Of a DNA stretch of 64,000 bases, positions 16,912-29,889 are shown one piece after another. Source of the DNA: a virus; the IMG/VR virus record IMGVR_UViG_3300009506_000008, positions 1-64,000 of that record; one strand, written 5' to 3'. The notes below the pieces were generated by a model. That model saw only the letters and a program-made list of their open reading frames with translations. It was not told where the DNA came from and did not search any database. Within the stretch, counting starts at the first letter, position 1. Each line of letters opens with the position of its first letter. The position numbers and the translations under genes are program-made.

Positions 16912-17101
16912 CGGACTTCTCCAATTTCTCTATCTGTTGAATGTACATGACCCCTTTGTGTTTGACTACCGTTATCGCGACTGATATGTCTCCCGGAGAT
17001 GAGGCTGGATCCGTGTGGACTTCCCACTTTCCCCGGAGTTTTACCCACCACCGCTTGTGAATAGGCAGATTATGCAGCCAGTTTGAAAGATTCTTTTTCA
17101 T
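16874..17101 (-). CDS. hypothetical protein
   Basis: 75 residues from ATG 17101 (MKKNLSNW; GGAAG upstream), overlapping the polymerase 3' end by 32 bases and the dUTPase start by 38. The protein is basic and Trp-rich at the start (HKRWWVKLRGKWEV), with beta-strands after it. No family is recognised. Confidence 0.55.
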   Translation of the reverse strand: MKKNLSNWLHNLPIHKRWWVKLRGKWEVHTDPASSPGDISVAITVVKHKGVMYIQQIEKLEKSDEKKVHPVCEDA

Positions 17102-18455
17102 GCCAGCTTCCATCTACGGGTGCGAGGTCGGCTTCGACTTCAAGCGGAGTAACGATCCAGTCCCAATGTTTTCGGAGTCGGACAGTAGTTATATCGACAA
17201 TCAGCTTGGACAGCAAGGGAATTTCTTCTTCCACTACGTCCAAGACAATCGAGTCGTGGATCTGTCCGATGATGACAGACTTCATGTTCCTTTCTTTCAT
17301 CTCTCTGTGTAGCTCTGTCAGGCTCCACAGGAGACAATGGAACGCGGCACCTTGAACCGGGTAGTTAATGACTTGGTTCTTCTGCATGAATCCCGAGCAT
17401 CGAAACCCGGTGAAGGTGTCAAAGAACCCTCGCAGCTCATACGCTTTGTACCAATCTTCCTTCCACTGCGTGTAGACCGGGAACCGTACATTCCAGAAAC
17501 CGTTCTCAACTCCTTTGACGTGCTTCTCGAACGCTCCATAGTCTATAACGCCCTTCGATGCTAGATGTTCCCTGAGAGGCACACCATCTGCCGTTTCGAG
17601 GTTGGAGACGGCTATCTCGTTCCATAGTGCCCTCGCACACGAAGCGTAGTAGTCTCCATAGAATTCAGGGAACACGAACTTGTTCTTGGCTGCGTGTCGG
17701 ACAGGTTTCATGACCTGTCGCAGCTTCAGGAAGAACAACTCCATGGCCGTGTCCCGGTGCATGTCAGACTTGGGATCGTTGATGTATTCCAGCATCGTTG
17801 GATCGAGATGGTAGCAAGCGGCAATCCTGACCTCGATACCGGAGTAGTCAACTTCCAATATGCGGCGACCGGGACGGGGAATGAACGCGGATCTGACTAG
17901 CTTTCCGATGGCGGGATCTCGTACGGGGATGTTCTGGAAGTTGGGATCTGAGGAAGATCCCCGGTAGGTTTGCACTGTGTGAAGATGGAAGAAAGGTCTG
18001 AGCAATCCGTCTTCGTTGGTCTCTCGTATGATCCCTTTGATGTACGTGTCTCGGGCCTTCTTCCACTTCTTGTAGTCCAGAACATATTGGAGCTCGGGGA
18101 TCTCTGGAATAAAGGCATCCAGAGCTTCTGCGTTGACCTGTCCTTTTCCGGTGTCCGTTGTGGACGGAGGATTCAGTCCTAGTTCATCGTAGAGGATGGT
18201 TGCTAGCTGTGAATCGGCGCCCAGCTTTGTGTTGCGCCGGTGAACTTTTCTCCAGAGAGCCCCGAACTCCGAGTCATCCAGCTTCTGTAGGGAATGGTCC
18301 ATGCGTTTGCCAAGACGCTTGAATTGCCTGCGGCAGTAGTCCAAGTCCACACGCATACCGGTTTGTTCGATATCAGCCAGAGCTAGCGTAGCTTTGTGAA
18401 GGAACCGGTAGCCTTCACTTGTTATCGGTTGGATTTCGAACGCAGCTTCACCCAT
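17070..18455 (-). CDS. DNA polymerase I family, polymerase domain only
   Basis: 461 residues from ATG 18455 (GGAGGAAACG upstream). Family A motifs: YRGSSSDPNFQNIP, motif A LEVDYSGIEVRI (about 203), motif B RHAAKNKFVFPEFYG, and motif C IIGQIHDSIVLDV. No 3'-5' exonuclease is present; that domain is encoded separately at 19296-20522. It is the probable replicative polymerase of the phage. Two small genes lie between the two parts, so the polymerase is split rather than fused. Confidence 0.92.
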   Translation of the reverse strand: MGEAAFEIQPITSEGYRFLHKATLALADIEQTGMRVDLDYCRRQFKRLGKRMDHSLQKLDDSEFGALWRKVHRRNTKLGADSQLATILYDELGLNPPSTTDTGKGQVNAEALDAFIPEIPELQYVLDYKKWKKARDTYIKGIIRETNEDGLLRPFFHLHTVQTYRGSSSDPNFQNIPVRDPAIGKLVRSAFIPRPGRRILEVDYSGIEVRIAACYHLDPTMLEYINDPKSDMHRDTAMELFFLKLRQVMKPVRHAAKNKFVFPEFYGDYYASCARALWNEIAVSNLETADGVPLREHLASKGVIDYGAFEKHVKGVENGFWNVRFPVYTQWKEDWYKAYELRGFFDTFTGFRCSGFMQKNQVINYPVQGAAFHCLLWSLTELHREMKERNMKSVIIGQIHDSIVLDVVEEEIPLLSKLIVDITTVRLRKHWDWIVTPLEVEADLAPVDGSWHEKESFKLAA

Positions 18456-18712
18456 CGTTTCCTCCGTGGGCTCCATCTGAAAGGTTTGTCCACGTAGCGT
18501 TTACCGTGGTATCTGTAAATGAAGAACTTCTCGTTGCCCTTTAACCAATCAGAAGGCCACTCCTCCGATGGGGTACTTTTCCTTTGGGCTTGGGAAAGCG
18601 TGTACGTCTTGGAGAGGTACGTTGCGGCTCCACGTCGGAACCCGATGTGGTAGTAGTATGGCGGGGAGGTACCACCACCTTTCCTTTCTCCTGGCCTAAT
18701 AGTCCGACCCAT
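18422..18712 (-). CDS. repeat-module protein (third copy), unknown function
   Basis: 96 residues from ATG 18712 with AAAGGAGGG upstream, in a different frame from the upstream gene. It starts MGRTIRPGERKGGG and ends FRWSPRRKRWVKLRSKSNR. The body (YYYHIGFRRG ... FFIYRYHGKRY) matches the layout of the two modules in 18541-19314. It overlaps the polymerase start by 34 bases. The shared ending R-W-S-x-x-R-R-x-x-W-V-x-L is the best family marker. The function is unknown. Confidence 0.65.
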   Translation of the reverse strand: MGRTIRPGERKGGGTSPPYYYHIGFRRGAATYLSKTYTLSQAQRKSTPSEEWPSDWLKGNEKFFIYRYHGKRYVDKPFRWSPRRKRWVKLRSKSNR

Positions 18713-19314
18713 CCATCCCTCCTTTGACTCCAGCGATACACGGCAACCCGTTGGAAGTGCTCGCCCCCGCTCTCGATCCGTTCTATGGTGCAGCGGTGGG
18801 TTTTGCTGAACTCGTCCGGTGGCCTGTACGCTAGACACTCTCTGAGTTTCTCACTGTGAACGCACGCACCTTGACCCCCGTTTACATGGTATGTCGCGCT
18901 GAACGACACCCTGGTTCCTTTCTTCTTGGTGCGAGACATAGCTTTCCACTCCTCTCTTTTGTAGCTCCATCGGTGTGTCTTGACGTGCGTACCGTCATCG
19001 TTTCCATGCAGTTCTACTATGAACATCGGGCGACCTAGAACACGCAAGGACTCGTCTGGAGTCTGGAGGATCGACTGGAGCTTGCTCGCCGGTCCAGAAA
19101 ACAACGCCTCCGCGCCCTCGAAACGATACACACCAGCATACTCTGGTTTATCTAAGCATCTTTGAAATGCAGCGTCAAGGTCCTCCTCTTGCCTGTCGGA
19201 GGGATGCTTGGAGATCGGTGTTCGTGATGGGAACGCTTCCTTGATGCGTTCCATCAGTCCCCCGGTCTTCCTCCTGTAGATGCGCTCTTTGGCTTTTACG
19301 AGTCCCAAGGCCAT
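18541..19314 (-). CDS. two-module repeat protein between exonuclease and polymerase genes
   Basis: 257 residues if read as one frame. Module 1 (about 45-125) ends THRWSYKREEWKAM, module 2 (about 127-212) ends VYRWSQRRDGWVGLLGQ. ATG 18939 (MSRTKKKGTR) lies exactly between them with AGGAG about 9 bases upstream and could start a separate gene. The last 45 residues are low-complexity and overlap the next gene in another frame, so the true stop may have been lost. The start at 19314 overlaps the UDG-exonuclease stop. No known family is recognised. Confidence 0.6.
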   Translation of the reverse strand: MALGLVKAKERIYRRKTGGLMERIKEAFPSRTPISKHPSDRQEEDLDAAFQRCLDKPEYAGVYRFEGAEALFSGPASKLQSILQTPDESLRVLGRPMFIVELHGNDDGTHVKTHRWSYKREEWKAMSRTKKKGTRVSFSATYHVNGGQGACVHSEKLRECLAYRPPDEFSKTHRCTIERIESGGEHFQRVAVYRWSQRRDGWVGLLGQEKGKVVVPPRHTTTTSGSDVEPQRTSPRRTRFPKPKGKVPHRRSGLLIG

Positions 19315-20522
19315 GTTCCCAACTCTTCCATCTGTAGCATCGCCAGCTTGTGTTCTAGCAACGCATCCATTCCGTTGTAGATCAATAGCTCATTGAGGGG
19401 AGCTTGGCGAATCCTGTTGAATCCGTTCGCTCCGTCTTTCTTGGGAGCTTCCAGATAGGGTTGGATGTGGGAGGCGTAATCTCTGATCCCGAACCGGACA
19501 TAGGCTTGAAACTTTAGTCCGGTGATATCCGGTCTGTTGTCCAAGACGTGTGCCGCGAGCATCGAATCCCAAGCCCAGTTCTCCACCGAGCAACCCAAGC
19601 GCACTTTTGTCCATACGTCCTCGAACTTCATATTGTGCGCGGCCTTCCTTGTCTTCGGGTTCGAGAGTAGCTTTGCCAACGACGCCATCGCCCCTGTCAC
19701 GAGAGGAAAGGCAAAGGTCCGCTTCCCGTCCGAGACTGCGCATGAAAAGATGGCATGTCCCTTGTTGTATGGCTTAAGACCGGTCGTCTCATAATCGAAC
19801 GAGAAGAAGTCTGGCCGGAATCCTCTCAGCGCCTTTCGGATCTTCGACGGTTCCCTGATGACCTCGATCTGTGACCTTTCGTTGATGTTCGGGGGAGGCA
19901 GTTCATTCAACAGGGAGATGGCAGCGGCGAGGTCTTGTTCAAATATCGTCTTGACTACGACTTCTGGGTGTTTGTTCTTGGGAGAGATACTGCGTTGAAC
20001 GTAACTAGGATGGAAGGTGGGCGCTATCCAACAGTTGAGATCCCTGTCGGGAATCTTCCATCCCCTCCATTTGGAGATCGGGCCGGGGGACTCCGTCAAA
20101 TGGTACAGGAACAGGGAACGGATCGCTGTTCCTCCCATGGGCATGATGAGCTTAGGTTTGAACCTCTCAATCTCTGCCCATACCTTGGGATGACAATACA
20201 TGATCTCCTTATCGGTAGGCTTGCGGTTATCTGGCGGTCTGCAACAGATCGCGTTGATTTTCCTACAGTCCCGATTCAGGTCTATCCCGCAGTCCTTGAG
20301 AGCCCTTCGGAGGTAGCGACCGGCCTTGCCAACGAACTGCTGACCTAGCTTGTCCTCTTCTTCTCCCTGAGCTTCCCCTAGAATCAAGATTCCTTTCTCG
20401 CCATCTCCCGTTGCGTCCATCTTCGGGATGTTGCATTCCTTCCAAAGACCGCATCCCCCGCATCCTGGGGCCCGTCTTTGGGGTTTTGTTGCTCGAACCT
20501 CGTCAGCGGCGAATAGTCCCAT
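19296..20522 (-). CDS. uracil-DNA glycosylase fused to 3'-5' exonuclease domain
   Basis: 408 residues. Residues 15-200 are a family-4-type UDG: four Cys at the start (CGGCGLWKEC), ILILGEAQGEEEDKLGQQF, INAICCRPPDNRKPT and FHPSYV. Residues 220-400 are a DnaQ-like proofreading domain as in Pol I: FSFDYETTGLKP (ExoI), AAHNMKFEDVW (ExoII) and YNGMDALLEH (ExoIII). The polymerase domain is a separate gene downstream (17070-18455). N-terminal UDG-type domains on family A polymerases are known in some phages; a stand-alone UDG-exonuclease chain is rarer. Confidence 0.88.
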   Translation of the reverse strand: MGLFAADEVRATKPQRRAPGCGGCGLWKECNIPKMDATGDGEKGILILGEAQGEEEDKLGQQFVGKAGRYLRRALKDCGIDLNRDCRKINAICCRPPDNRKPTDKEIMYCHPKVWAEIERFKPKLIMPMGGTAIRSLFLYHLTESPGPISKWRGWKIPDRDLNCWIAPTFHPSYVQRSISPKNKHPEVVVKTIFEQDLAAAISLLNELPPPNINERSQIEVIREPSKIRKALRGFRPDFFSFDYETTGLKPYNKGHAIFSCAVSDGKRTFAFPLVTGAMASLAKLLSNPKTRKAAHNMKFEDVWTKVRLGCSVENWAWDSMLAAHVLDNRPDITGLKFQAYVRFGIRDYASHIQPYLEAPKKDGANGFNRIRQAPLNELLIYNGMDALLEHKLAMLQMEELGTWPWDS

Positions 20523-21554: not shown

Positions 21555-22273
21555 GTGCTCTCCTTTGCCATTTGACGGAATCCCTCGGAGGCGATCACCA
21601 CGTCCTCGGGAGTAAGGGCAGTCAGTACGCCGCGACTCCACCGGAACTTCACCTGGCCTTCCATCACCTGTATGATCTCGACCATCTTGAACTCGATCCG
21701 GTTGACGGCTTTCTGATCTTCGGCTAGCTTCTTCTGCTTGGACTTCTTGTCCAACTTAGGGTTGCTCGTGATGACGCACTCTTCTCCGTCATCGTTGATG
21801 TAGAACGCCTTGAATCCCGAACTCTTGACCTTCAGGTGCCCTTCTCCTAGCACCGGCTCGTTGAGAATGATCTGTATGTCTGGTCGGGCTTCCTTCAACT
21901 GTTCTATGTCCAAGTTGATGCTAGCTTGAAGATGCCCGACGAATTTCCACTGCTCCATCATCCATACGTTCTTCCCCTTCATCGCGAGGGATTTGGGAGG
22001 GGGTGGAGGAGGCTTGCGCCGCTTCGCGATGATGTCTTCCAATCGAGGAGCCATGTGAACGTTTCGTTTTTCCTCCATGACCACGGTTGCCGTCGGTTTG
22101 TGTATCACGAGACAGTGATTGTTGGAGAGGTGCGAGGTCACTGCTACGTAGTCAGGACCCAGGGCTTCGTTTACCAATTCGTGGATACGCATTGCCGGAA
22201 CCGGCTTGGATTTCTTCTTCTTCAGTTCCACCACAGGAACGTCTGTCAGTCTTCCTTTCTCTCTTTCGGCCAT
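21551..22273 (-). CDS. hypothetical protein
   Basis: 240 residues. The N-terminal third is basic, a run of six Pro lies near residue 88, and a beta-rich C-terminal half follows (QASINLDIEQLKEARPD, HLKVKSSGFKAFYINDDGE). The 4-base overlap with the clamp gene suggests co-translation. It may be a replication accessory protein, but no family is recognised. Confidence 0.65.
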   Translation of the reverse strand: MAEREKGRLTDVPVVELKKKKSKPVPAMRIHELVNEALGPDYVAVTSHLSNNHCLVIHKPTATVVMEEKRNVHMAPRLEDIIAKRRKPPPPPPKSLAMKGKNVWMMEQWKFVGHLQASINLDIEQLKEARPDIQIILNEPVLGEGHLKVKSSGFKAFYINDDGEECVITSNPKLDKKSKQKKLAEDQKAVNRIEFKMVEIIQVMEGQVKFRWSRGVLTALTPEDVVIASEGFRQMAKEST

Positions 22274-22437
22274 TTGGTCCTCCTGCTGGGCTGCGCTGCC
22301 TCTTTCTTGAACTCGAACTTCAGTACCTCTTTGGGTGCCCTGTCATAGAATGTGTGGAGCGTTCCAAATTCGTACTGGTCGAGTCGCGGATCTGAAGCGC
22401 ATTTGTCAGCAATGCTTCCGGCGAGATAGATGATCAT
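22246..22437 (-). CDS. small hypothetical protein next to DpdA-like gene
   Basis: 63 residues from ATG 22437, overlapping the DpdA-like stop (ATGA). It begins MIIYLAGSIADKCASD, similar in style to the first strand of nucleotide-processing and DpdA-type N-termini, and ends in a basic tail. Because the DpdA-like protein itself starts directly at its barrel, this could be a detached N-terminal piece; that is speculation. Confidence 0.55.
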   Translation of the reverse strand: MIIYLAGSIADKCASDPRLDQYEFGTLHTFYDRAPKEVLKFEFKKEAAQPSRRTKWPKERKED

Positions 22438-23360
22438 ACCAGTCTCAGGCTCCTCCTCACCGGCGGTTTCGAGCGAAAGAAAGGCCACGGCCACGTCGGC
22501 AGTGTCCTAGCAAACTCCAGGTAAAAACGAGCATTGAGAGAACCACGAATGTAATGATCATTGAACACTCCTTTCTCCACGACTTCCTCGTGTTTTGTAT
22601 TGGTTAGTTTATCGTAGGAGGTATGAGAAACGCCCTTTTGGAATCCTGTGTCCGCGAGGTATTGGTCCACGAGTTTGTGGTACTGAACCTTGGCGAGATG
22701 CTCCCCTCCGATATGGCCGCTTGGATTTCTCTTTCGATGCGCAACTTGAATAAAGTGAGGACTCTCTGAATAATTCCAGCTCTCTCCTCGGCGCTGAGGG
22801 ACGAGCAAGGTTCCTCTAACCGTATGGAGAAGCCAACTTGTTGAATCGACACTGTACCAAGGGTAACGTTGCATGATTGGGAAGGAGGTGATTGCAAAGC
22901 CGTGTACTCTAGCTTTGGGGAGATGGTCTCTCCCGCCGCAAATGATGTGAAACGCGCCATCGGCCCATTCTGTGTACTGGTTTCTATGAACCTCTTGGCC
23001 AAGTCCTCCAAGTGCAATGTATTCGTAGCCACGATTGATATACCTCCGTAGGTACTTGAGTGGAGTGCCGTAGTGAATGACAGGTATCGGTCGGACCCCG
23101 TACCTCCTTTCCAAGTAGCGTTGAGCCTTGTGTGACAGCTTCGGATCGAATATCACATCAACGTTCGCATAGACTGTGACCTCGGGATGCTGTTGGATAA
23201 ATTCTCCGTACGCATCCAAGTAGAGGTAGAACTCCCGAGTGGTATAGAAATCATACCCATGTTTGTGCTGTTGCTCAATGACGAAGCGGGAATACAGTCC
23301 ATGGGCGCCGGAGTCCAAGAAGAGTAGCTTTCCTGGAACTCCCATCCGTTTCTTGCTCAC
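22434..23360 (-). CDS. dpdA: DpdA-like DNA 7-deazaguanine transglycosylase (TGT superfamily)
   Basis: 308 residues from GTG 23360 (GGAGG 7 bases upstream). TGT-like barrel motifs in order: LLFLDSGAHGLYS, VTVYANVDVIFD, RPIPVIHYGTPLKYLRRY, YEYIALGGLGQE, ARVHGFAITSF and RYPWYSVDSTSWLL, where the Asp in VDS would be the catalytic nucleophile. Phage proteins with this pattern exchange guanine in DNA for a 7-deazaguanine. FolE, QueE and QueD genes lie 4-7 kb upstream in the same operon direction. The family call is firm; DNA as substrate is inferred. Confidence 0.82.
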   Translation of the reverse strand: MSKKRMGVPGKLLFLDSGAHGLYSRFVIEQQHKHGYDFYTTREFYLYLDAYGEFIQQHPEVTVYANVDVIFDPKLSHKAQRYLERRYGVRPIPVIHYGTPLKYLRRYINRGYEYIALGGLGQEVHRNQYTEWADGAFHIICGGRDHLPKARVHGFAITSFPIMQRYPWYSVDSTSWLLHTVRGTLLVPQRRGESWNYSESPHFIQVAHRKRNPSGHIGGEHLAKVQYHKLVDQYLADTGFQKGVSHTSYDKLTNTKHEEVVEKGVFNDHYIRGSLNARFYLEFARTLPTWPWPFFRSKPPVRRSLRLV

Positions 23361-23590
23361 GAGAAATCCTCCACCAGAACAGTCTTGCCGTTGGGTAGCT
23401 TCGATTCCCGCATCTTGAGGATGACAAGAAGGCCCTCCAGTCCTGCATCATTGCCTATGTCTACTTCATATAGGGAGTGTGGAATCATGTCTCTCCCTGT
23501 GAAGTAGGCTTGGGCAATTCTCCTGGAGGAAGCAGCCACGATCCCGAGGCAGTGCCCGTCGAAGTCAAGCGCCTTGTAGACTTTCTTCAT
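23357..23590 (-). CDS. hypothetical protein
   Basis: 77 residues, overlapping the DpdA-like gene by 4 bases at the 3' end and the QueD-like gene by 4 at the 5' end. Mixed alpha/beta (VYKALDFDGHCLGIVAASS). Its position inside the modification cluster suggests an accessory role. No family is known. Confidence 0.6.
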   Translation of the reverse strand: MKKVYKALDFDGHCLGIVAASSRRIAQAYFTGRDMIPHSLYEVDIGNDAGLEGLLVILKMRESKLPNGKTVLVEDFS

Positions 23591-23970
23591 GTCAGGTCTT
23601 CCATTCCGTCCAGGAGAACATCATCAAATCCGTTCGCCCAGACGATGGCTCCGTTTTCCCCGTCCTCGAACACCGACACCCTGTTGGCACAGAACTTGTT
23701 GATGATGCAGTTCGCCATCATCTCACAAGACAAAGCTCCCAAGTCCTTCCTGTCCCAGGTATTCTGAAGCCAGTCGTCTAAGAGTTCCTTCTGGCGGATG
23801 AACTCGATGTCCCGATTGTTGTGCGTGACGTGGAACCACGCTTCGACGTGGAACTCGTGTCGGTGTGGATGTTTGAGGTACTCTTTCCCCTCGATGTCGC
23901 AATCCGGCCAATGATGGATTGCCGCGAACCTCGTTCTCACTACCACGTAAGCCGTTCGTGTCCTATTCAT
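23587..23970 (-). CDS. QueD/PTPS-like protein
   Basis: 127 residues starting MNRTRTAYVV. Zinc-ligand histidines of the 6-pyruvoyl-tetrahydropterin synthase fold are visible as FAAIHHW and HPHRHEFHVEA, followed by RDIEFIRQKELLDDW, LGALSCEMMAN and RVSVFEDGENGAIVW. This pattern is a recurrent phage branch of the PTPS family distinct from true QueD (29491-29889). The substrate is unknown. It lies next to the DpdA-like gene, so a pterin or deazapurine step is possible. Confidence 0.7.
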   Translation of the reverse strand: MNRTRTAYVVVRTRFAAIHHWPDCDIEGKEYLKHPHRHEFHVEAWFHVTHNNRDIEFIRQKELLDDWLQNTWDRKDLGALSCEMMANCIINKFCANRVSVFEDGENGAIVWANGFDDVLLDGMEDLT

Positions 23971-24503
23971 GAGTATCTATCCTTGTTGAGTACGATGAAC
24001 TTTGCAATCGTTTGGAGGTCTACCGGGCGATACCCCCAACAGTCTACTCCCACATCCATCGAGAGCCCGTAGGGACGGTTGACAAAGGACCCGTGAACGT
24101 GTCCGTACAAATGCCAACTGCCGTACCCTTTACTCGGCCAAGCCCGATGGGGGTAGTGAGAGAGGAAAATGTGTGCCTTCAGGTCCTCCTCTTTGATCTT
24201 AACCATCGAGGTATCTTTCACCCAGACTACTCTTCCACCGGCTCTGAACAAGGACCTCTTCCACCTGTGATCGTGGTTACCTAGAATCAGATGGAGCCGC
24301 CCGTTGAGCTCCCGAAGATACCGCACGGGATGCTTCCAAGCGAAGTCTCCCAAAATGTACACGTTGTCTTCGGGCTTGACTAGCCGGTTGTGATTCTCCA
24401 GCAGAGCGGCGTCCATTTCCTCGACGGTGCTGAACGGTCTGTTCGCATACTCAAGGATGTTCGCGTGCCCGAAGTGGTGGTCTGCCGAGAACCAGTATTT
24501 CAT
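23967..24503 (-). CDS. calcineurin-like metallophosphoesterase
   Basis: 178 residues: YWFSADHHFGHANIL (D-x-H plus H), NVYILGDFAWK (GD), LHLILGNHDHRWK (GNHD), FLSHYPHRAWP (H) and HLYGHVHGS (GHxH) give a complete metallophosphoesterase active site. The substrate is unknown; nucleotides or RNA/DNA ends are typical for phage members. It is tightly coupled to the glycosyltransferase and QueD-like genes (4-base overlaps). Confidence 0.88.
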   Translation of the reverse strand: MKYWFSADHHFGHANILEYANRPFSTVEEMDAALLENHNRLVKPEDNVYILGDFAWKHPVRYLRELNGRLHLILGNHDHRWKRSLFRAGGRVVWVKDTSMVKIKEEDLKAHIFLSHYPHRAWPSKGYGSWHLYGHVHGSFVNRPYGLSMDVGVDCWGYRPVDLQTIAKFIVLNKDRYS

Positions 24504-25711
24504 AGGAATCCTACGCCAGGTTCTCCCGTAAAGAGAGGGTCATAATCGGGAACGAGTCTGTCATCGTCATGTCGCATGACTTGCAGCATCCGCTCCCAGG
24601 AGCGGTCAAATGGTTCGTAGACCCATCTGAATGTGTCTACGGTGAAGTCCTCGGGCCGCGCATCCCTCTTGTCGATCCATTGAATGATCCGGTTCGCCGC
24701 TCCGTAGACATCCCCCTTTGGATACATCAACGTCGAAAACTTGAGAACCTCGGGAAACGACAACCAGTAGGGGTAGACCGGGATACACCCCATCGTAGTT
24801 GCTTCCAACAACGTCCATGATACAAAGTCCTGGTGGGCGCAGTTGAATTGTACCGATGACTCCAACAAGTTCTCGTAGTATTGCTCCTTGGTCTGTCCTA
24901 CCCTGACGTCGATGACATCCTTGCCGTACACTTTGAGCGCAGTATCCAGCAAGTACAAAAGCCTCGGATTGTTTGACCGCATCTGGGAAGCGGAAGTGGT
25001 AATGACGAACTTGATATCGTCCCGTCCTCGGCTTGATACGATCTCTCCGATCACGTTCAGGAAGAAACCGGGGTCTTTCTCCTTGTCCCAGCGAGACGAC
25101 CAGATCACCTGTTTCTTCCTCTTGGTAGGACGAACCGCCCTAGTATCCACGTGAGTCATGACTTCCTTGGAATTGTAGGGCAGTCCTGTCAAATGGACTG
25201 TATCCTCGTCGCCAATTCCCGCGTAGACACACAGGTCACGGAGGCACGTTGACGTGACGAAGATGCCGGACAGGCACTTGGCGTTACCTAGCTCGAAGTG
25301 CCGCATCCAATGTCGCATCGGGTACGTGAAATCGTGGATATCGACACTCTGCGCGTGGAGCATCGCGTACATGCGCGGGTGGACGTGCATAAGATCGAAA
25401 GCGTACTGCAACGCCTCGATCCCAGGGTGCCAAAAGTCATCGAAGTAAAACACGTCGTTGGAACTGATCTCTCCGTCGTTCAGGAGTCGCAGTGCTTCTT
25501 GGACCTGGGATAGCGCCCAGTAGCCACGCCCGCAGGCGTCAAGTACAGAACCAACCGTGATCTCCTTGTTGAGAGAAGATCCCTCAATGCGTCGGTAATC
25601 GACTCCATGTTCTCTCCAGTTGCGTTCGAGCCACCCGTCCTCGGCTTTGCTGAGTTGGACGGTGTATCGCTCTGGATAGGGCTCAAGGGGAAAATACCAA
25701 AGTCGTCGCAT
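24500..25711 (-). CDS. GT-B fold glycosyltransferase
   Basis: 403 residues from ATG 25711 (GGAGGAGG about 9 bases upstream); the frame is open to 25771. The N-terminal half has VFYFDDFWHPGIEALQYAF; the linker VIWSSRWDKEKDPGFFLNV and the C-terminal SVQFNCAHQDFVSWTLLEAT with GCIPVYP are typical of group-1/4 glycosyltransferases that use nucleotide sugars. The acceptor is unknown. Its place in the DNA-modification cluster raises the idea of sugar addition to modified bases; a cell-surface acceptor is the alternative. Confidence 0.8.
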   Translation of the reverse strand: MRRLWYFPLEPYPERYTVQLSKAEDGWLERNWREHGVDYRRIEGSSLNKEITVGSVLDACGRGYWALSQVQEALRLLNDGEISSNDVFYFDDFWHPGIEALQYAFDLMHVHPRMYAMLHAQSVDIHDFTYPMRHWMRHFELGNAKCLSGIFVTSTCLRDLCVYAGIGDEDTVHLTGLPYNSKEVMTHVDTRAVRPTKRKKQVIWSSRWDKEKDPGFFLNVIGEIVSSRGRDDIKFVITTSASQMRSNNPRLLYLLDTALKVYGKDVIDVRVGQTKEQYYENLLESSVQFNCAHQDFVSWTLLEATTMGCIPVYPYWLSFPEVLKFSTLMYPKGDVYGAANRIIQWIDKRDARPEDFTVDTFRWVYEPFDRSWERMLQVMRHDDDRLVPDYDPLFTGEPGVGFL

Positions 25712-25712
25712 G

Positions 25713-26060
25713 TCATTCGTCCTCCTCCAGTTGCATCTTGAAGATGCGCAGTTGAAGTGCCTCAATTTCACTCCGGTAGCGTTCCGCTTCCTCCGAGACG
25801 TTCTTGAATGCCCTCGTCAGTTTATCCGTAGTGGCTGTGAAATCTGTCGTTACCTTTTTGAGTCTCTCCGCAATGGTCGCCTCCTTTTCTCTCCAATAGG
25901 AGACACAGGTGACGGGGTAGCCTTGACACAGATACCGGATCTTCATGCTGAATTCGGAGCGGACTTGTGACGCGTTCGGTTTGCCACACAGTTCGCACGG
26001 TTCGTTGGTAACCTCTCTCAGCAGATCGTACACTTCGGGTGGAACTTCCTGTTTGGCCAT
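25713..26060 (-). CDS. coiled-coil protein with zinc knuckle
   Basis: 115 residues. An N-terminal CELCGKPN pair plus two later Cys could bind zinc; residues 55-112 form a charged helix with heptad character. It abuts its neighbours (ends 2 bases from the GT start and shares 1 base with the upstream gene). The function is unknown. Confidence 0.6.
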   Translation of the reverse strand: MAKQEVPPEVYDLLREVTNEPCELCGKPNASQVRSEFSMKIRYLCQGYPVTCVSYWREKEATIAERLKKVTTDFTATTDKLTRAFKNVSEEAERYRSEIEALQLRIFKMQLEEDE

Positions 26061-26482
26061 CAGAACAACTCCTCAGGATCGCACCCGCCGTTGAGAGGAT
26101 CGTTGTCCAACAACGGCAAAAGCATCCCCAAGTTGCGCAAGGCGTCGATAGCAAACTTGAACTGGGACCGACAGTTCGCCAACTGTTGGCTTAGTTCCTC
26201 CCGTTCCTTCTCGACCACCTGAATCTCCCGTCCCCTGTCCACCATCGGTAGTACCTGGTCGACGAGTTCCTCTAGTGATTCTTTTTGCCCAAGCCGGTCG
26301 TCATGCGGAAACCGGCGGGCTTCCCAATCGGGAATCGGGCCATGAACCGCGAGGCGTAACCGTTCCCACTGTGCTCTGAGATCCCGTTCATCCTCCTTGA
26401 TTTTCTTGTCGAGGTCAAGAATCCGACCCCTCAACCTCGTGATCTCTTCCTGTAGTTCCTTCTTGGTCTGCTCTTTGCTCAT
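26060..26482 (-). CDS. coiled-coil hypothetical protein
   Basis: 140 residues from ATG 26482 (MSKEQTKKEL). Two long Glu/Lys/Arg-rich helices flank a Pro/Trp-containing linker (HGPIPDWEARRFPHDD). The acidic end is GGCDPEELF. No family is recognised; it overlaps by 1 base with the next gene. Confidence 0.6.
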   Translation of the reverse strand: MSKEQTKKELQEEITRLRGRILDLDKKIKEDERDLRAQWERLRLAVHGPIPDWEARRFPHDDRLGQKESLEELVDQVLPMVDRGREIQVVEKEREELSQQLANCRSQFKFAIDALRNLGMLLPLLDNDPLNGGCDPEELF

Positions 26483-26483
26483 G

Positions 26484-27116
26484 TCACAATTCCTCGTCCC
26501 CGTCGTACATGGGATCACTCAGAAAGTTATGGTACCTCTTGCCGGTAGCAATGTCGTACCAGTCCATGTCCTGTTGTGCCACTATCTTGAACCCGTCGAT
26601 GTAGACTCCTTGCATTGGCTTGGCGTCGGTGTAGGACGTATGAACGATGTACGCACTGCGTTTCAGGAAGTCCGGGGCGTGCTCGATCTCCATCACGTCG
26701 ATTATCTCGATCACGATGCGGTAGTTCATGCGTATGAGAGTGACCGCAACGTCGCAGTGTGCGGGGTTGAGGCCTGTCTCATATCCGGCACCAAAATACA
26801 CACGCCGAATATCAGGATTCTCTCTCAAATGGCTCCTGATTTCTCGCGGGTTAATGGCAGGTGAACCGGAGGGAACGAACAGGGTGACGGTGCCCCGTTC
26901 TGGACCTTCTACTTCATGTCCGATGAACAGACTGTGCTTCTTCTCTACCAAGGGATTATTCCGTATCCCTTGGAAGAACCCGGACAGGGTTTTCCAGCAC
27001 TCGTCACAGTCCTCCGTTGACATAGGATCGAGCCCGGAATTCAATCGGTTAGGGTTGATGTGCTGATCTACGTAGTCATACCACTCTTCCTTGGAACAGA
27101 AAGGATCTTTGCTCAT
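26484..27116 (-). CDS. hypothetical protein in the modification cluster
   Basis: 210 residues. The N-terminal 45 residues share a pattern with the small upstream protein (EEWYDYVDQHINPNRLNSGL). The middle is an alpha/beta region (GTVTLFVPSGSPAINPREIR, RVYFGAGYETGLNPAHCD). It could be an enzyme, but I cannot assign a fold. It lies between FolE and the glycosyltransferase. Confidence 0.6.
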   Translation of the reverse strand: MSKDPFCSKEEWYDYVDQHINPNRLNSGLDPMSTEDCDECWKTLSGFFQGIRNNPLVEKKHSLFIGHEVEGPERGTVTLFVPSGSPAINPREIRSHLRENPDIRRVYFGAGYETGLNPAHCDVAVTLIRMNYRIVIEIIDVMEIEHAPDFLKRSAYIVHTSYTDAKPMQGVYIDGFKIVAQQDMDWYDIATGKRYHNFLSDPMYDGDEEL

Positions 27117-27292
27117 CTCGGCCTCCTGTTGATCTCCTCTCGTGACCTTCGGAAGATGTTGTTCAAGGTAGAACGGAACTCTTCGCTTTGCTCAGGCGTC
27201 AATGGAGACAGTCCCCTCCTTTCTCGTTCCGGGTTGACGCAGTTCGCTATGTACCTGTCCCAGCTCTCCTTGGGATACATTTCCTCGCTCAT
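27113..27292 (-). CDS. 59-residue hypothetical protein
   Basis: ATG 27292 overlaps the folE stop (ATGA) and the gene's own TGA overlaps the next ATG. The sequence ESWDRYIANCVNPERERRGL followed by SPLTPEQ mirrors the N-terminus of the downstream 210-residue protein (W, Y, NP, R, GL, P conserved), so the two appear to share an N-terminal module. Confidence 0.75.
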   Translation of the reverse strand: MSEEMYPKESWDRYIANCVNPERERRGLSPLTPEQSEEFRSTLNNIFRRSREEINRRPR

Positions 27293-27843
27293 CGTATCGC
27301 CTGCATCAACTCCGCTCGGGCAGCGGGATCTGTCTTGAATGATCCCCGAAGATGGTTAGACACCATGATGGAGTGTTGCTTACTGACTCCTCTCATCCTC
27401 ATGCAAAAATGCTCTGCCTCAATTATACACGCGGCAGCGATTGGCGTTAGGTGCTGCATGAGAGTGTCTACCACTTGGTTCCCTAGTCTCTCCTGGACCT
27501 GTAGCCTGCGGGCGAATATCTCCAAGAGCCTAGCGAGCTTGGATACCCCTATGATTTTCCCCTCAACAGGGATGTAGGCAATGTGAGCCTTCCCGACGAA
27601 GGGGAGCATATGATGCTCGCACATCGAGTACAGCTCAACGTTCTTGAGAAGGACCATCTCGTCATGTCCCTCCCCGTCAAACGTCTTGAACACATCTGCG
27701 GGGTTCTTGTTGTAGCCAGAGAACAGTTCATCCCATGACCGTACGACACGGGAAGGCGTTTCTATCAACCCATCTCTGTTCGGGTCTTCGCCTATGTGGA
27801 TCAAAAGTTCACGCACGCACGTCTTCTTGTGGTCTATTTCCAT
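27289..27843 (-). CDS. folE: GTP cyclohydrolase I
   Basis: 184 residues from ATG 27843; GAGAAGGA lies upstream and the frame is open to a TTG at 27861. Motifs: DGLIETPSRVVRSWDELFSG, SMCEHHMLPFVGKAHIAYIP, IGVSKLARLLEIFARRLQVQERL and CIIEAEHFCMRMRGV, with zinc Cys and His ligands intact. It makes dihydroneopterin triphosphate, the precursor for the QueD-QueE 7-deazaguanine route. Its linkage with queE, queD and a DpdA-like gene supports that route over folate synthesis. Confidence 0.93.
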   Translation of the reverse strand: MEIDHKKTCVRELLIHIGEDPNRDGLIETPSRVVRSWDELFSGYNKNPADVFKTFDGEGHDEMVLLKNVELYSMCEHHMLPFVGKAHIAYIPVEGKIIGVSKLARLLEIFARRLQVQERLGNQVVDTLMQHLTPIAAACIIEAEHFCMRMRGVSKQHSIMVSNHLRGSFKTDPAARAELMQAIR

Positions 27844-27864
27844 GACCCGTATCCTTCTCAAAGT

Positions 27865-27931
27865 GGCACCCCCAGTCCGCGAGGGAGCTGGGGGTGCCGG
27901 GTTGGACGGGAGTCGGGGGATGCTCCCGTCC
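27865..27931 (-). terminator. two strong hairpins between acidic-protein gene and folE
   Basis: GGACGGGAG pairs with CTCCCGTCC (27904-27931) just at the stop of the acidic-protein gene, and GGCACCCCCAG pairs with CTGGGGGTGCC (27865-27898) just before the folE ribosome binding site. They lie in tandem in the leftward transcript. No T-tract follows, so they may attenuate transcription, block RNases or shape the folE leader rather than terminate fully. Confidence 0.6.
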
Positions 27932-28698
27932 TACTTGATGGAGAGGTGGCCCTTCTTGTCCTTGACCACGATGTCTTTCTTCTCTTCGAGGTGCTTGATG
28001 TGCGCCTTGACTCGCGCCTTGCTCTGCGAGGTCACGCGCCCGAACTCCTTGCCGACTTTCTCGGCGATTTCATCGAGCGTTCCGCCCTTGACGAGGAGGT
28101 CGTCGATGAACGCGGCCTGCGATCCGACAAAGTGACCGAACTTGTTCTTCGTGCCGGACTTGATGAGGTTGCTCTCGCCGGTGCCCTTGGCCTTGCCCTT
28201 CTTGGCGGGTTTCTCTTTGCCCTTCGCTTTGCCCTTGCCCTTCTTGGCCGGGGGAGCTTCCTCTTCCTCATCCTCGTCATCGTCCTCCGACTCATCTTCG
28301 TCGGAGTCCTCATCCTCGTCTTCCTCTTCCTCTTCCTTGGCGGGCTTCGCTTTGGGCTTCGCCTTTTCCTTGCCCTTCGCTTTGCCCTTCTTGGCGGGAG
28401 GCGCTTCCTCCTCCTCCTCCTCCTCATCCTCGTCCTCGGTGCCCTCGTCCTCATCTTCGCCTTCGTCCTCGTCCTCGTCCTCGTCATCGGACTCGGCACC
28501 GGGTCGCTCGTACCCGAGGTCTTCCAGGGTAGCCCAGGTCGCTTCCTTGAAATCGTCGCCTTCCTCGATCTCTTCCGCGTTCGCGAGGATCGCGTCCACG
28601 AGTTTCTGCCCTTTCAGGCTCGTGTCGATGGGGGGCTCCAGGCCCATGGAGTCGTTCATGTCCTTCGCCGCTTTCACGAGTGCGCTTCTTGTTGCCAT
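27931..28698 (-). CDS. acidic/basic repeat protein with C-terminal winged-helix-like domain
   Basis: 255 residues, ATG after AGAGGAGGAAATATC. Residues 1-65 are a small helical domain (ATRSALVKAAKDMND). Residues 68-175 alternate Asp/Glu runs with APPAKKGKAKGKEK-type blocks (two copies). Residues 180-255 form a compact domain (NKFGHFVGSQAAFIDDLLVKG ending in GHLSIK), paralogous to the protein at 48413-48751. The layout suggests a nucleoid-type or regulatory DNA-binding protein. No function is established. Confidence 0.7.
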   Translation of the reverse strand: MATRSALVKAAKDMNDSMGLEPPIDTSLKGQKLVDAILANAEEIEEGDDFKEATWATLEDLGYERPGAESDDEDEDEDEGEDEDEGTEDEDEEEEEEEAPPAKKGKAKGKEKAKPKAKPAKEEEEEDEDEDSDEDESEDDDEDEEEEAPPAKKGKGKAKGKEKPAKKGKAKGTGESNLIKSGTKNKFGHFVGSQAAFIDDLLVKGGTLDEIAEKVGKEFGRVTSQSKARVKAHIKHLEEKKDIVVKDKKGHLSIK

Positions 28699-28805
28699 GA
28701 TATTTCCTCCTCTGTGGGGTGGAGAGACAGGCTCTCCGGGGTTTTGGGGCTGCGTCGCCCTGCGTCGTCGGGTAATTATACATGGTTACCCGGCATCCGT
28801 TGACT
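28699..28805 (-). promoter_or_regulatory. structured leader of the acidic-protein gene, with TATAAT
   Basis: In the leftward direction: GGGTAA pairs with TTACCC around a loop holding TATAAT (about 28770-28791), then a CGACGCAG/CCCC-rich stretch, then hairpin GGAGAG-CCTGT-CTCTCC (28731-28747), then ACCCCACAGAGGAGG and ATG. This is one of the repeated hairpin-before-SD leaders of this phage. The TATAAT may be a promoter -10, although no clear -35 is seen. Confidence 0.5.
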
Positions 28806-28849
28806 GGAAAAAATGCACTTCCACAAAAAAAGTTTTCCGCCCAGTCTCT

Positions 28850-29632
28850 TTAGCGATCCGAGTCTTCCACGAGTCCGATGATCTTATGGAGTTGGAGGTT
28901 CAATACTCCGTCCGTAGTAAACTCGGACATGAGGCCCGCCAATTCGGCGGGGTCCATCACTCCGTACATGGGTGAGAATGCAAAGGTAGCACAACACCGA
29001 TCACTCTGCAACTGATTTTTTATTGCCAGCGCAGAAAAGAAATCGTTGCGGTCACGGATGACGAACTTTACAAAGTCGGCAGGACTCAGATTCATGAAGA
29101 CTGCCGAGTCCATATGACGTTCCATTCCAGACGAGTTCAGCTTCCAATCCACCACGAAGTTCGCGTATTGTGTCAGAACATCCGAGATTGGGATGGAGCC
29201 GTTCGTCTCAATCGTTGTTCGATACCCGTGATGGTACAAGACCGCTACCAACTCCTCCAAAGACTTCGTTTGCAGTAGAGGTTCACCGCCGGTGATTGTT
29301 ACCTTGAAGGAGTCAAAGTGTAGCACTCGACGGAGAATGGCTGCGGTGTCCATGAGACCGCCTTTTCCATACGAGTACGTTGTGTCACAGTACGAGCACC
29401 TGAGATTACATCCCGCGAGACGGATGAAGGTAGTCACCCTCCCTTGGTGACAAGCGTTGACTTCACCATCTATGGAGCGGAAGATGCTGGTTACCCGGAA
29501 TGTCGCCAGGTGGCCCAACTGTCGCAAGTCTCTGTCAGACGGACACTTTTCACATAGTTCTGTTCCGGCAGGTTCGCCATCACTTCGAAGGCAATCCACT
29601 CCACAAGTCTTTCCGCAGTCGGTCTGCTCCAT
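28850..29632 (-). CDS. queE: 7-carboxy-7-deazaguanine synthase QueE (radical SAM)
   Basis: 260 residues if ATG 29632 is used (GAGGT upstream). The QueE core is clear: FRSIDGEVNACHQGRVTTF, the radical SAM CNLRCSYC (Cx3CxxC), KVTITGGEPLLQ and TTIETNGSIPI. The first 40 residues, with CGKTCGVDC and CEKC, overlap queD by 142 bases, so a later TTG start near 29527 is possible. It converts carboxy-tetrahydropterin to 7-carboxy-7-deazaguanine. Confidence 0.92.
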   Translation of the reverse strand: MEQTDCGKTCGVDCLRSDGEPAGTELCEKCPSDRDLRQLGHLATFRVTSIFRSIDGEVNACHQGRVTTFIRLAGCNLRCSYCDTTYSYGKGGLMDTAAILRRVLHFDSFKVTITGGEPLLQTKSLEELVAVLYHHGYRTTIETNGSIPISDVLTQYANFVVDWKLNSSGMERHMDSAVFMNLSPADFVKFVIRDRNDFFSALAIKNQLQSDRCCATFAFSPMYGVMDPAELAGLMSEFTTDGVLNLQLHKIIGLVEDSDR

Positions 29633-29889
29633 TTCAGTACCTCATTAAGCATTTGGTGATCAAGACGTTCAACGATGGGACCGACGATCTTCTTCAGATC
29701 GCCGAAGTCGATGACCATGTCCGGGTAGTCGGTGTTGGCATAGGCTTCCTTCAATCCTACCTCAACCTCCAACCGGGCGTTATGGCCGTGGACGTTCTTG
29801 CACTTCCCAGGATGCCCTTCCAGGTAGTGCCCATAGCAGAAATCAAACGCTTTGGTTACGGTGATCTCGCACGACTTGGCTACTGCCAT
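29491..29889 (-). CDS. queD: 6-carboxytetrahydropterin synthase QueD
   Basis: 132 residues, ATG after AAGGAGGTAAGCA. FDFCYGHYLEGHPGKCKNVHGHN carries the zinc histidines and catalytic Cys of the family in the expected order; DYPDMVIDFGDLKKIV and LDHQMLNEV follow, and the C-terminal VRLTET contains the usual Glu. It catalyses the second step (dihydroneopterin triphosphate to carboxy-tetrahydropterin) between FolE and QueE. Confidence 0.92.
   Translation of the reverse strand: MAVAKSCEITVTKAFDFCYGHYLEGHPGKCKNVHGHNARLEVEVGLKEAYANTDYPDMVIDFGDLKKIVGPIVERLDHQMLNEVLKWSRPTAERLVEWIAFEVMANLPEQNYVKSVRLTETCDSWATWRHSG

Follow-up and report, generated by a model that had tools for sequence, protein, structure and literature searches.

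How a 7-deazaguanine pathway without QueC is brought to its end is the question raised by a gene block in the viral record IMGVR_UViG_3300009506_000008 of the IMG/VR database, of which the first 64 kb (positions 1 to 64,000 of a linear, 101,020-bp record) were analysed as a whole and are called here the window. The 7-deazaguanines are known as bases of DNA, and the dG+/preQ0 systems of the phage 9g type combine the transglycosylase DpdA1 with FolE, QueD, QueE and either QueC or Gat-QueC (Hutinet et al. 2019, PMC6884629). The initial annotation of the window had placed FolE, QueD, QueE and a DpdA-like enzyme on one strand between 22.4 and 29.9 kb, which the Pfam, PHROG and NCBIfam profiles bear out; its list was incomplete, however, a QueD paralog (termed PTPS-L below), a glycosyltransferase and an open reading frame (ORF) of 63 amino acids having been overlooked. 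With these genes included, it is proposed from the sequence, with a probability of about 0.55, that 7-carboxy-7-deazaguanine (CDG) is made, that PTPS-L acts in place of QueC, and that the product is probably glycosylated and is inserted in the DNA by a DpdA in two pieces. The genes concerned are the following.

22246..22437, minus strand: mini-protein of 63 amino acids with homology to the first beta-alpha unit that the DpdA core lacks; start codon overlapping the stop of dpdA (ATGA)
22434..23360, minus strand: DpdA core (DNA-guanine transglycosylase family); PHROG 887 "queuine tRNA-ribosyltransferase", 123 bits, E 3.7e-35
23587..23970, minus strand: PTPS-L, a QueD-fold paralog of 127 amino acids; phrog_17812, E 9e-19, below the Pfam cut-off
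24500..25771, minus strand: GT-B/GT4-type glycosyltransferase, by homology within family A5; start probably at the internal ATG at 25711
26484..27116, minus strand: domain X, by blastp links of E 1e-5 to 1e-19 (alignment A10)
27289..27843, minus strand: FolE (GTP cyclohydrolase I); Pfam GTP_cyclohydroI, E 2.1e-71
28850..29632, minus strand: QueE, the CDG synthase of the radical S-adenosylmethionine (SAM) type with CX3CX2C; phrog_2076, E 1.2e-32; NCBIfam QueE models, E ~1e-44, below their cut-offs
29491..29889, minus strand: canonical QueD (6-carboxytetrahydropterin synthase); Pfam PTPS, E 1.6e-31; NCBIfam TIGR03367 QueD, 91.6 bits, above the cut-off

The observation that no QueC is visible in the window proved correct and extends to the full record, in which the search with PF06508 gave no match over 101,020 bp, the same search detecting QueC in 12 of the 14 control genomes. 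The accompanying suggestion of a QueC elsewhere in the genome did not hold for the rest of the record, where the search found none and where the remaining 37 kb show, by reading, long ORFs of structural type without any gene of the pathway. In one of the other records compared (L148, genome G072), the QueC gene at 27097-27711 carries 11 in-frame TGA codons, which points to a phage where TGA codes for an amino acid.

The distribution of PTPS-L and QueC was compared by sampling the loci by DpdA only (alignment A4), so that the choice was unbiased by PTPS-L or QueC; 50 records were searched for QueC, and PTPS-L was sought in the flanks. Twenty-three records were found with PTPS-L only, 23 with QueC only, none with both and 4 with neither (Fisher p 1.7e-10, relatedness ignored). 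In phages with the intact, 9g-type DpdA (DpdA1), 30 of 31 records contain QueC and none of 50 loci contains PTPS-L, while full-length QueC was found in none of the 51 records chosen by PTPS-L, which are up to 469 kb long; three of the PTPS-L records gave weak partial QueC matches (Vibrio phage D479, 32.8 bits; Xanthomonas phage X1, 16.2; G021, 23.5). By gene content, PTPS-L substitutes for QueC, and as QueC alternates with PTPS-L plus glycosyltransferase in this DpdA clade, the phages seem to have replaced the branch after CDG instead of relying on the host for it. The PTPS-L phages outside the window clade mostly lack the window DpdA family, X1 and ACP17 encoding another transglycosylase-like family (phrog_10773), and they add independent cases of the QueC replacement. 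A DpdA of PHROG 887 is absent, for example, from Pseudomonas phage PA5oct, Synechococcus phage BUCT-ZZ01 and Cellulophaga phage phiST.

The structure predicted for PTPS-L by AlphaFold (predicted local distance difference test, pLDDT, 91.6) has E. coli QueD (4ntk, E 1.3e-5) as its best Foldseek match, and the PTPS-L and QueD profiles are aligned by hhalign with a probability of 97% and E 5.8e-11; the PTPS-L profile did not match the single QueD sequence of the window. With the family of QueD and 6-pyruvoyl-tetrahydropterin synthase, PTPS-L shares the T-fold, the His triad for zinc and the anchoring Glu. It differs in that the position ahead of the HxH zinc motif that holds the catalytic Cys in QueD is not Cys (alignment A1), in a shorter loop thereafter, where QueD has LDH, and in an added Ser-Cys-Glu motif, which is invariant, as is Glu-Asp, among 113 relatives; the residues conserved at 100% in the 113 sequences are H19, H36, H38, R53, E56, S81, C82, E83, E102 and D103. 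Because the catalytic Cys is lost and the loop shortened, PTPS-L is unlikely to repeat the QueD reaction, for which a canonical QueD is encoded anyway. At least 579 relatives, usually annotated as hypothetical, were confirmed in viral contigs; in most of the named phages having PTPS-L, it lies near folE, queD or queE. In Chryseobacterium phage MA9V-3 (L008, 5425-6303), an endonuclease VII-like domain is fused N-terminally to PTPS-L. A B12-binding radical SAM-like protein directly follows PTPS-L in several relatives (L020, 10281-11651; L021, 10320-11615), and none was seen in the window.

The glycosyltransferase belongs to family A5. Pfam Glycos_transf_1 is matched by 17 of the 25 sequences of this family (best 8e-12), that of the window scoring below the threshold, and the invariant residues R227, E231, K232 and E323 correspond to the Arg, Glu-Lys and Glu of the GT-B/GT4 enzymes; the PDB matches of the family are all weak, the better ones being mostly glycosyltransferases. 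In the DpdA-sampled loci, the gene is present in all 32 loci with PTPS-L and in none of the 48 without it, nor in any of the 50 loci with intact DpdA1. When the loci were sampled by PTPS-L, it was found within 6 kb in 57 of 80, with contig ends cutting many of the rest, and it also stands beside PTPS-L in the unrelated phages ACP17, X1, BUCT-ZZ01, Phosso and PA5oct. In the DpdA-sampled loci, the glycosyltransferase is never seen without PTPS-L, while some other phages have PTPS-L and no such glycosyltransferase; the simplest order would, therefore, be PTPS-L first and glycosyltransferase thereafter. Domain X, for which no Pfam match was found, is joined to PTPS-L as a C-terminal extension in six relatives (L151, L153, L158, L163, L177, L178) and is, therefore, probably involved in the same step. 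A degenerate QueE was considered as its origin and ruled out by the profile comparison (probability 12%).

As to the insertion, 222 phage records, that of 9g among them, gave tblastn matches to DpdA, and the search for close relatives with the DpdA protein alone yielded one locus. The residues D26, S27, G28, G134, G135, H162, G163, F164, S179 and D181 are invariant in the alignment, and the catalytic and base-binding motifs DSGA, GG, HGF and VDS are intact in the window protein. Its initial assignment to the superfamily of tRNA-guanine transglycosylases stands by sequence family and has to be amended in one respect, namely, that the first strand-helix unit is absent and apparently comes from a separate, translationally coupled mini-protein. 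The intact phage DpdAs have about 62 residues ahead of DSGA, holding the first strand and helix, whereas the window DpdA starts at FLDSGA, i.e., at strand 2. The gene of the mini-protein overlaps that of the core at the junction GGTATGATC, and the product begins with MIIYLAGS. The mini-profile matched in its own genome with E 8e-4 to 3e-5, and the record holds no second credible copy; among the PHROGs, no family fitted the minis convincingly.

The same arrangement recurs in the relatives. Among 80 related DpdAs, 49 lack the first unit, and 39 of these 49 have a mini or a C-terminal fusion. As the iterated hidden Markov model of the minis is partly circular, a non-circular profile-profile test was run instead, in which 131 standalone minis, no DpdA being included, matched the N-termini of 42 intact DpdAs with a probability of 94% and E 1.6e-7, from the first Met; single intact DpdA sequences gave weak scores against the mini profile, in the correct position. 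The start of the mini overlaps the dpdA stop as ATGA or TAATG in 30 of the 44 nearest minis, and an ORF with the mini motif was found directly downstream of 20 of the 46 split dpdA genes, compared with 14 of the 1056 ends of other genes (p 2e-21). Natural fusions of mini and DpdA are N-terminal in L206 and L196 and C-terminal in L167 and L165, the C-terminal kind being a natural circular permutation, and the DpdA of L206 (3823-5160) has two tandem first-strand units at its N-terminus. The AlphaFold model of the C-fused relative L167 has a confident core starting at strand 2, and the Foldseek search among viral models ranked unnamed phage proteins above the annotated queuine tRNA-ribosyltransferases that it also matched (best 6e-10). 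Two adjoining DpdA copies, one with a C-terminal mini unit, were seen in the QueC-positive phage L165 (8995-9978 and 9935-10876).

The genes for making CDG are complete. The window QueD has both the catalytic Cys and the HGH zinc motif, and in QueE, in which homology to the family and the radical SAM motif CX3CX2C were both found, the cysteines C75, C79 and C82 are invariant; the QueE alignment was too divergent for use in scanning. As written, the QueE and QueD frames overlap by 142 nt, so that the real QueE start is probably internal. In the order of transcription on the minus strand, from 29.9 to 22.2 kb, the block comprises QueD, QueE, a low-complexity protein, FolE, domain X, two short ORFs, the glycosyltransferase, a metallophosphoesterase, PTPS-L, a short ORF, DpdA and the 63-amino-acid ORF, beyond which one unassigned ORF is followed by a sliding clamp and DNA polymerase-like ORFs. 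Since FolE, QueD, QueE and DpdA are kept together in the relatives, their grouping is not due to chance. The product between QueE and FolE is the following.

27931..28698, minus strand: low-complexity, highly charged protein of 255 amino acids

Low-complexity sequence occurs near the same position in L020 and L023 too. The DNA polymerase of the window (17070-20522, minus strand) is apparently split into a 408-amino-acid ORF and a 468-amino-acid polymerase ORF, with an ORF of 257 amino acids between them. By eye, the former combines a uracil-DNA-glycosylase-like start with an exonuclease-like part, and its start is resembled by that of an 862-amino-acid ORF in the relative L032 (12751-15336).

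Taken in sequence, the steps would be as follows. By family membership, FolE, QueD and QueE would convert GTP to CDG, which would then be processed, instead of by QueC, by PTPS-L, a presumed zinc T-fold enzyme derived from QueD. The GT4-type glycosyltransferase, given its strict dependence on PTPS-L, may decorate the PTPS-L product, either as the free base or after insertion. DpdA, judged by its family, would swap guanine in DNA for the modified base, with the mini made by coupled translation probably completing the barrel in trans as its first strand-helix unit. The outcome expected is a CDG-derived, probably glycosylated 7-deazaguanine that would shield the phage DNA from restriction.

Several results weigh against this scheme and limit how far it can be pressed. 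On the DpdA tree, just two switches between QueC and PTPS-L suffice, so that the counts within the clade are not independent and the statistics overstate the independence of the cases; one switch was apparently reversed, with L165, L174, L162 and L206 lying inside the PTPS-L clade and having QueC without PTPS-L or glycosyltransferase. The glycosyltransferase is absent genome-wide in the PTPS-L phages phiST, Bakedbeans, MA9V-3, Roos, RHph_I1_18 and D479, which means that PTPS-L does not need it, and glycosylation is argued from association alone. This bears on the reading of PTPS-L as the predicted CDG decarboxylase DpdL, giving 7-deazaguanine in DNA (dDG), with the glycosyltransferase acting elsewhere or adding a sugar to dDG. 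Work of Cui et al. from 2023 is said to have found both CDG (dCDG) and dDG in phage DNA and to have predicted DpdL for the decarboxylation. The position of PTPS-L at the CDG branch point in a QueD-type T-fold with zinc histidines agrees with such an assignment, as do the six phages just named, Cellulophaga phage phiST among them, and zinc together with a guanine-anchoring Glu would suit the decarboxylation of CDG, as proposed for DpdL. No named NCBIfam profile, for a DpdL or otherwise, matched PTPS-L, however, and plain decarboxylation leaves the strict link with the glycosyltransferase in this clade unexplained. The DpdL assignment is a serious contender, falling somewhat short of even odds, and it overlaps with the scheme preferred here, being one candidate for the PTPS-L reaction. 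The bare CDG is a known base of phage DNA, and its direct insertion, with other roles for PTPS-L and the glycosyltransferase, would fit a complete CDG route without QueC in the record; it is quite unlikely, as PTPS-L replaces QueC in a sample drawn irrespective of both genes and a merely truncated pathway would not keep the domain X and glycosyltransferase that travel with PTPS-L. That the linear record may be incomplete is a further point against the scheme, and it would allow preQ0 to be completed by a QueC in the missing part or in the host, many hosts of such phages encoding the queuosine pathway (PMC6884629), and then to be inserted by DpdA. This is very unlikely in view of the PTPS-L records, none of which has a full-length QueC, and of the intact-DpdA1 phages, nearly all of which carry their own. 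Hence, of the interpretation first given to the locus, a CDG-making route with DpdA and without QueC is retained, and its two endings, in bare CDG or in preQ0, are less likely than the one with PTPS-L and the glycosyltransferase.

The remaining objections concern DpdA. The C-terminal mini of L167 was left unplaced by AlphaFold (pLDDT <40), so that the assembly of core and mini in trans remains a matter of inference, and the same model gave only weak TIM-barrel matches in the PDB with Foldseek. Moreover, of the 31 loci with a DpdA that includes the first unit, 25 contain minis all the same, a finding not accounted for by simple complementation, and many loci hold several different minis, with up to 6 mini-profile matches per locus. 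These observations would be met if the minis were independent small proteins, such as DpdA-derived regulators or decoys, and the DpdA core worked alone; this is rather unlikely, given that the split cores begin at strand 2 and the minis match exactly the part that is absent, that the genes overlap from stop to start, and that fusions occur at both ends of DpdA. It may be speculated instead that the minis are alternative specificity units. In the fullest form of this idea, which is unlikely as it stands, the enzyme would be a modular transglycosylase, one DpdA core pairing in trans with alternative first-strand units at the barrel mouth that would set which DNA sequences are modified, and inserting a glycosylated, CDG-derived 7-deazaguanine. 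Finally, a role of the block in making a tRNA base, with the DpdA-like protein acting as a tRNA-guanine transglycosylase, would be permitted by its superfamily and by the label of PHROG 887, and is highly improbable: the nearest annotated relatives are the phage DpdAs of the 9g type, the profile search of the PDB finds only the DNA-guanine transglycosylase 7ui4 (weakly, E 0.04), and the gene has the sliding clamp and DNA polymerase in its neighbourhood, an arrangement shared with phage 9g.

Under the scheme preferred here, the missing QueC becomes a swap, in which a widespread QueD paralog stands in the place of QueC and, in this clade, is always accompanied by a glycosyltransferase. Should the product prove to be a glycosylated 7-deazaguanine, it would represent a new class of hypermodified DNA; we know of no report of a DNA base class of the glycosylated, CDG-derived kind. 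If the two-piece DpdA is real, it would be a natural barrel enzyme with a detachable and multiplied first unit, which might alter the target specificity. In the literature searched, which left out the most relevant 2023 paper, no description was found of a QueC-replacement module with a glycosyltransferase or of a split DpdA.

In comparison with the known systems, the block resembles that of the 9g type in having the homologs of FolE, QueD, QueE and DpdA together near the clamp and polymerase, and departs from it by the lack of QueC, by the presence of PTPS-L, the glycosyltransferase and domain X, and by a DpdA without the first beta-alpha unit, accompanied by a separate mini-protein. With the dCDG/dDG phages of Cui et al. 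2023, which reportedly carry the predicted DpdL, it would share a base derived from CDG without QueC; to our knowledge, neither a glycosyltransferase module nor a split DpdA has been described for those phages. The alpha- and beta-glycosyltransferases of phage T4, acting on 5-hydroxymethylcytosine, are likewise encoded alongside a base-modification pathway, whereas the window enzyme is of the GT4 type and tied to the 7-deazaguanine pathway, with the PTPS-L product as its putative acceptor.

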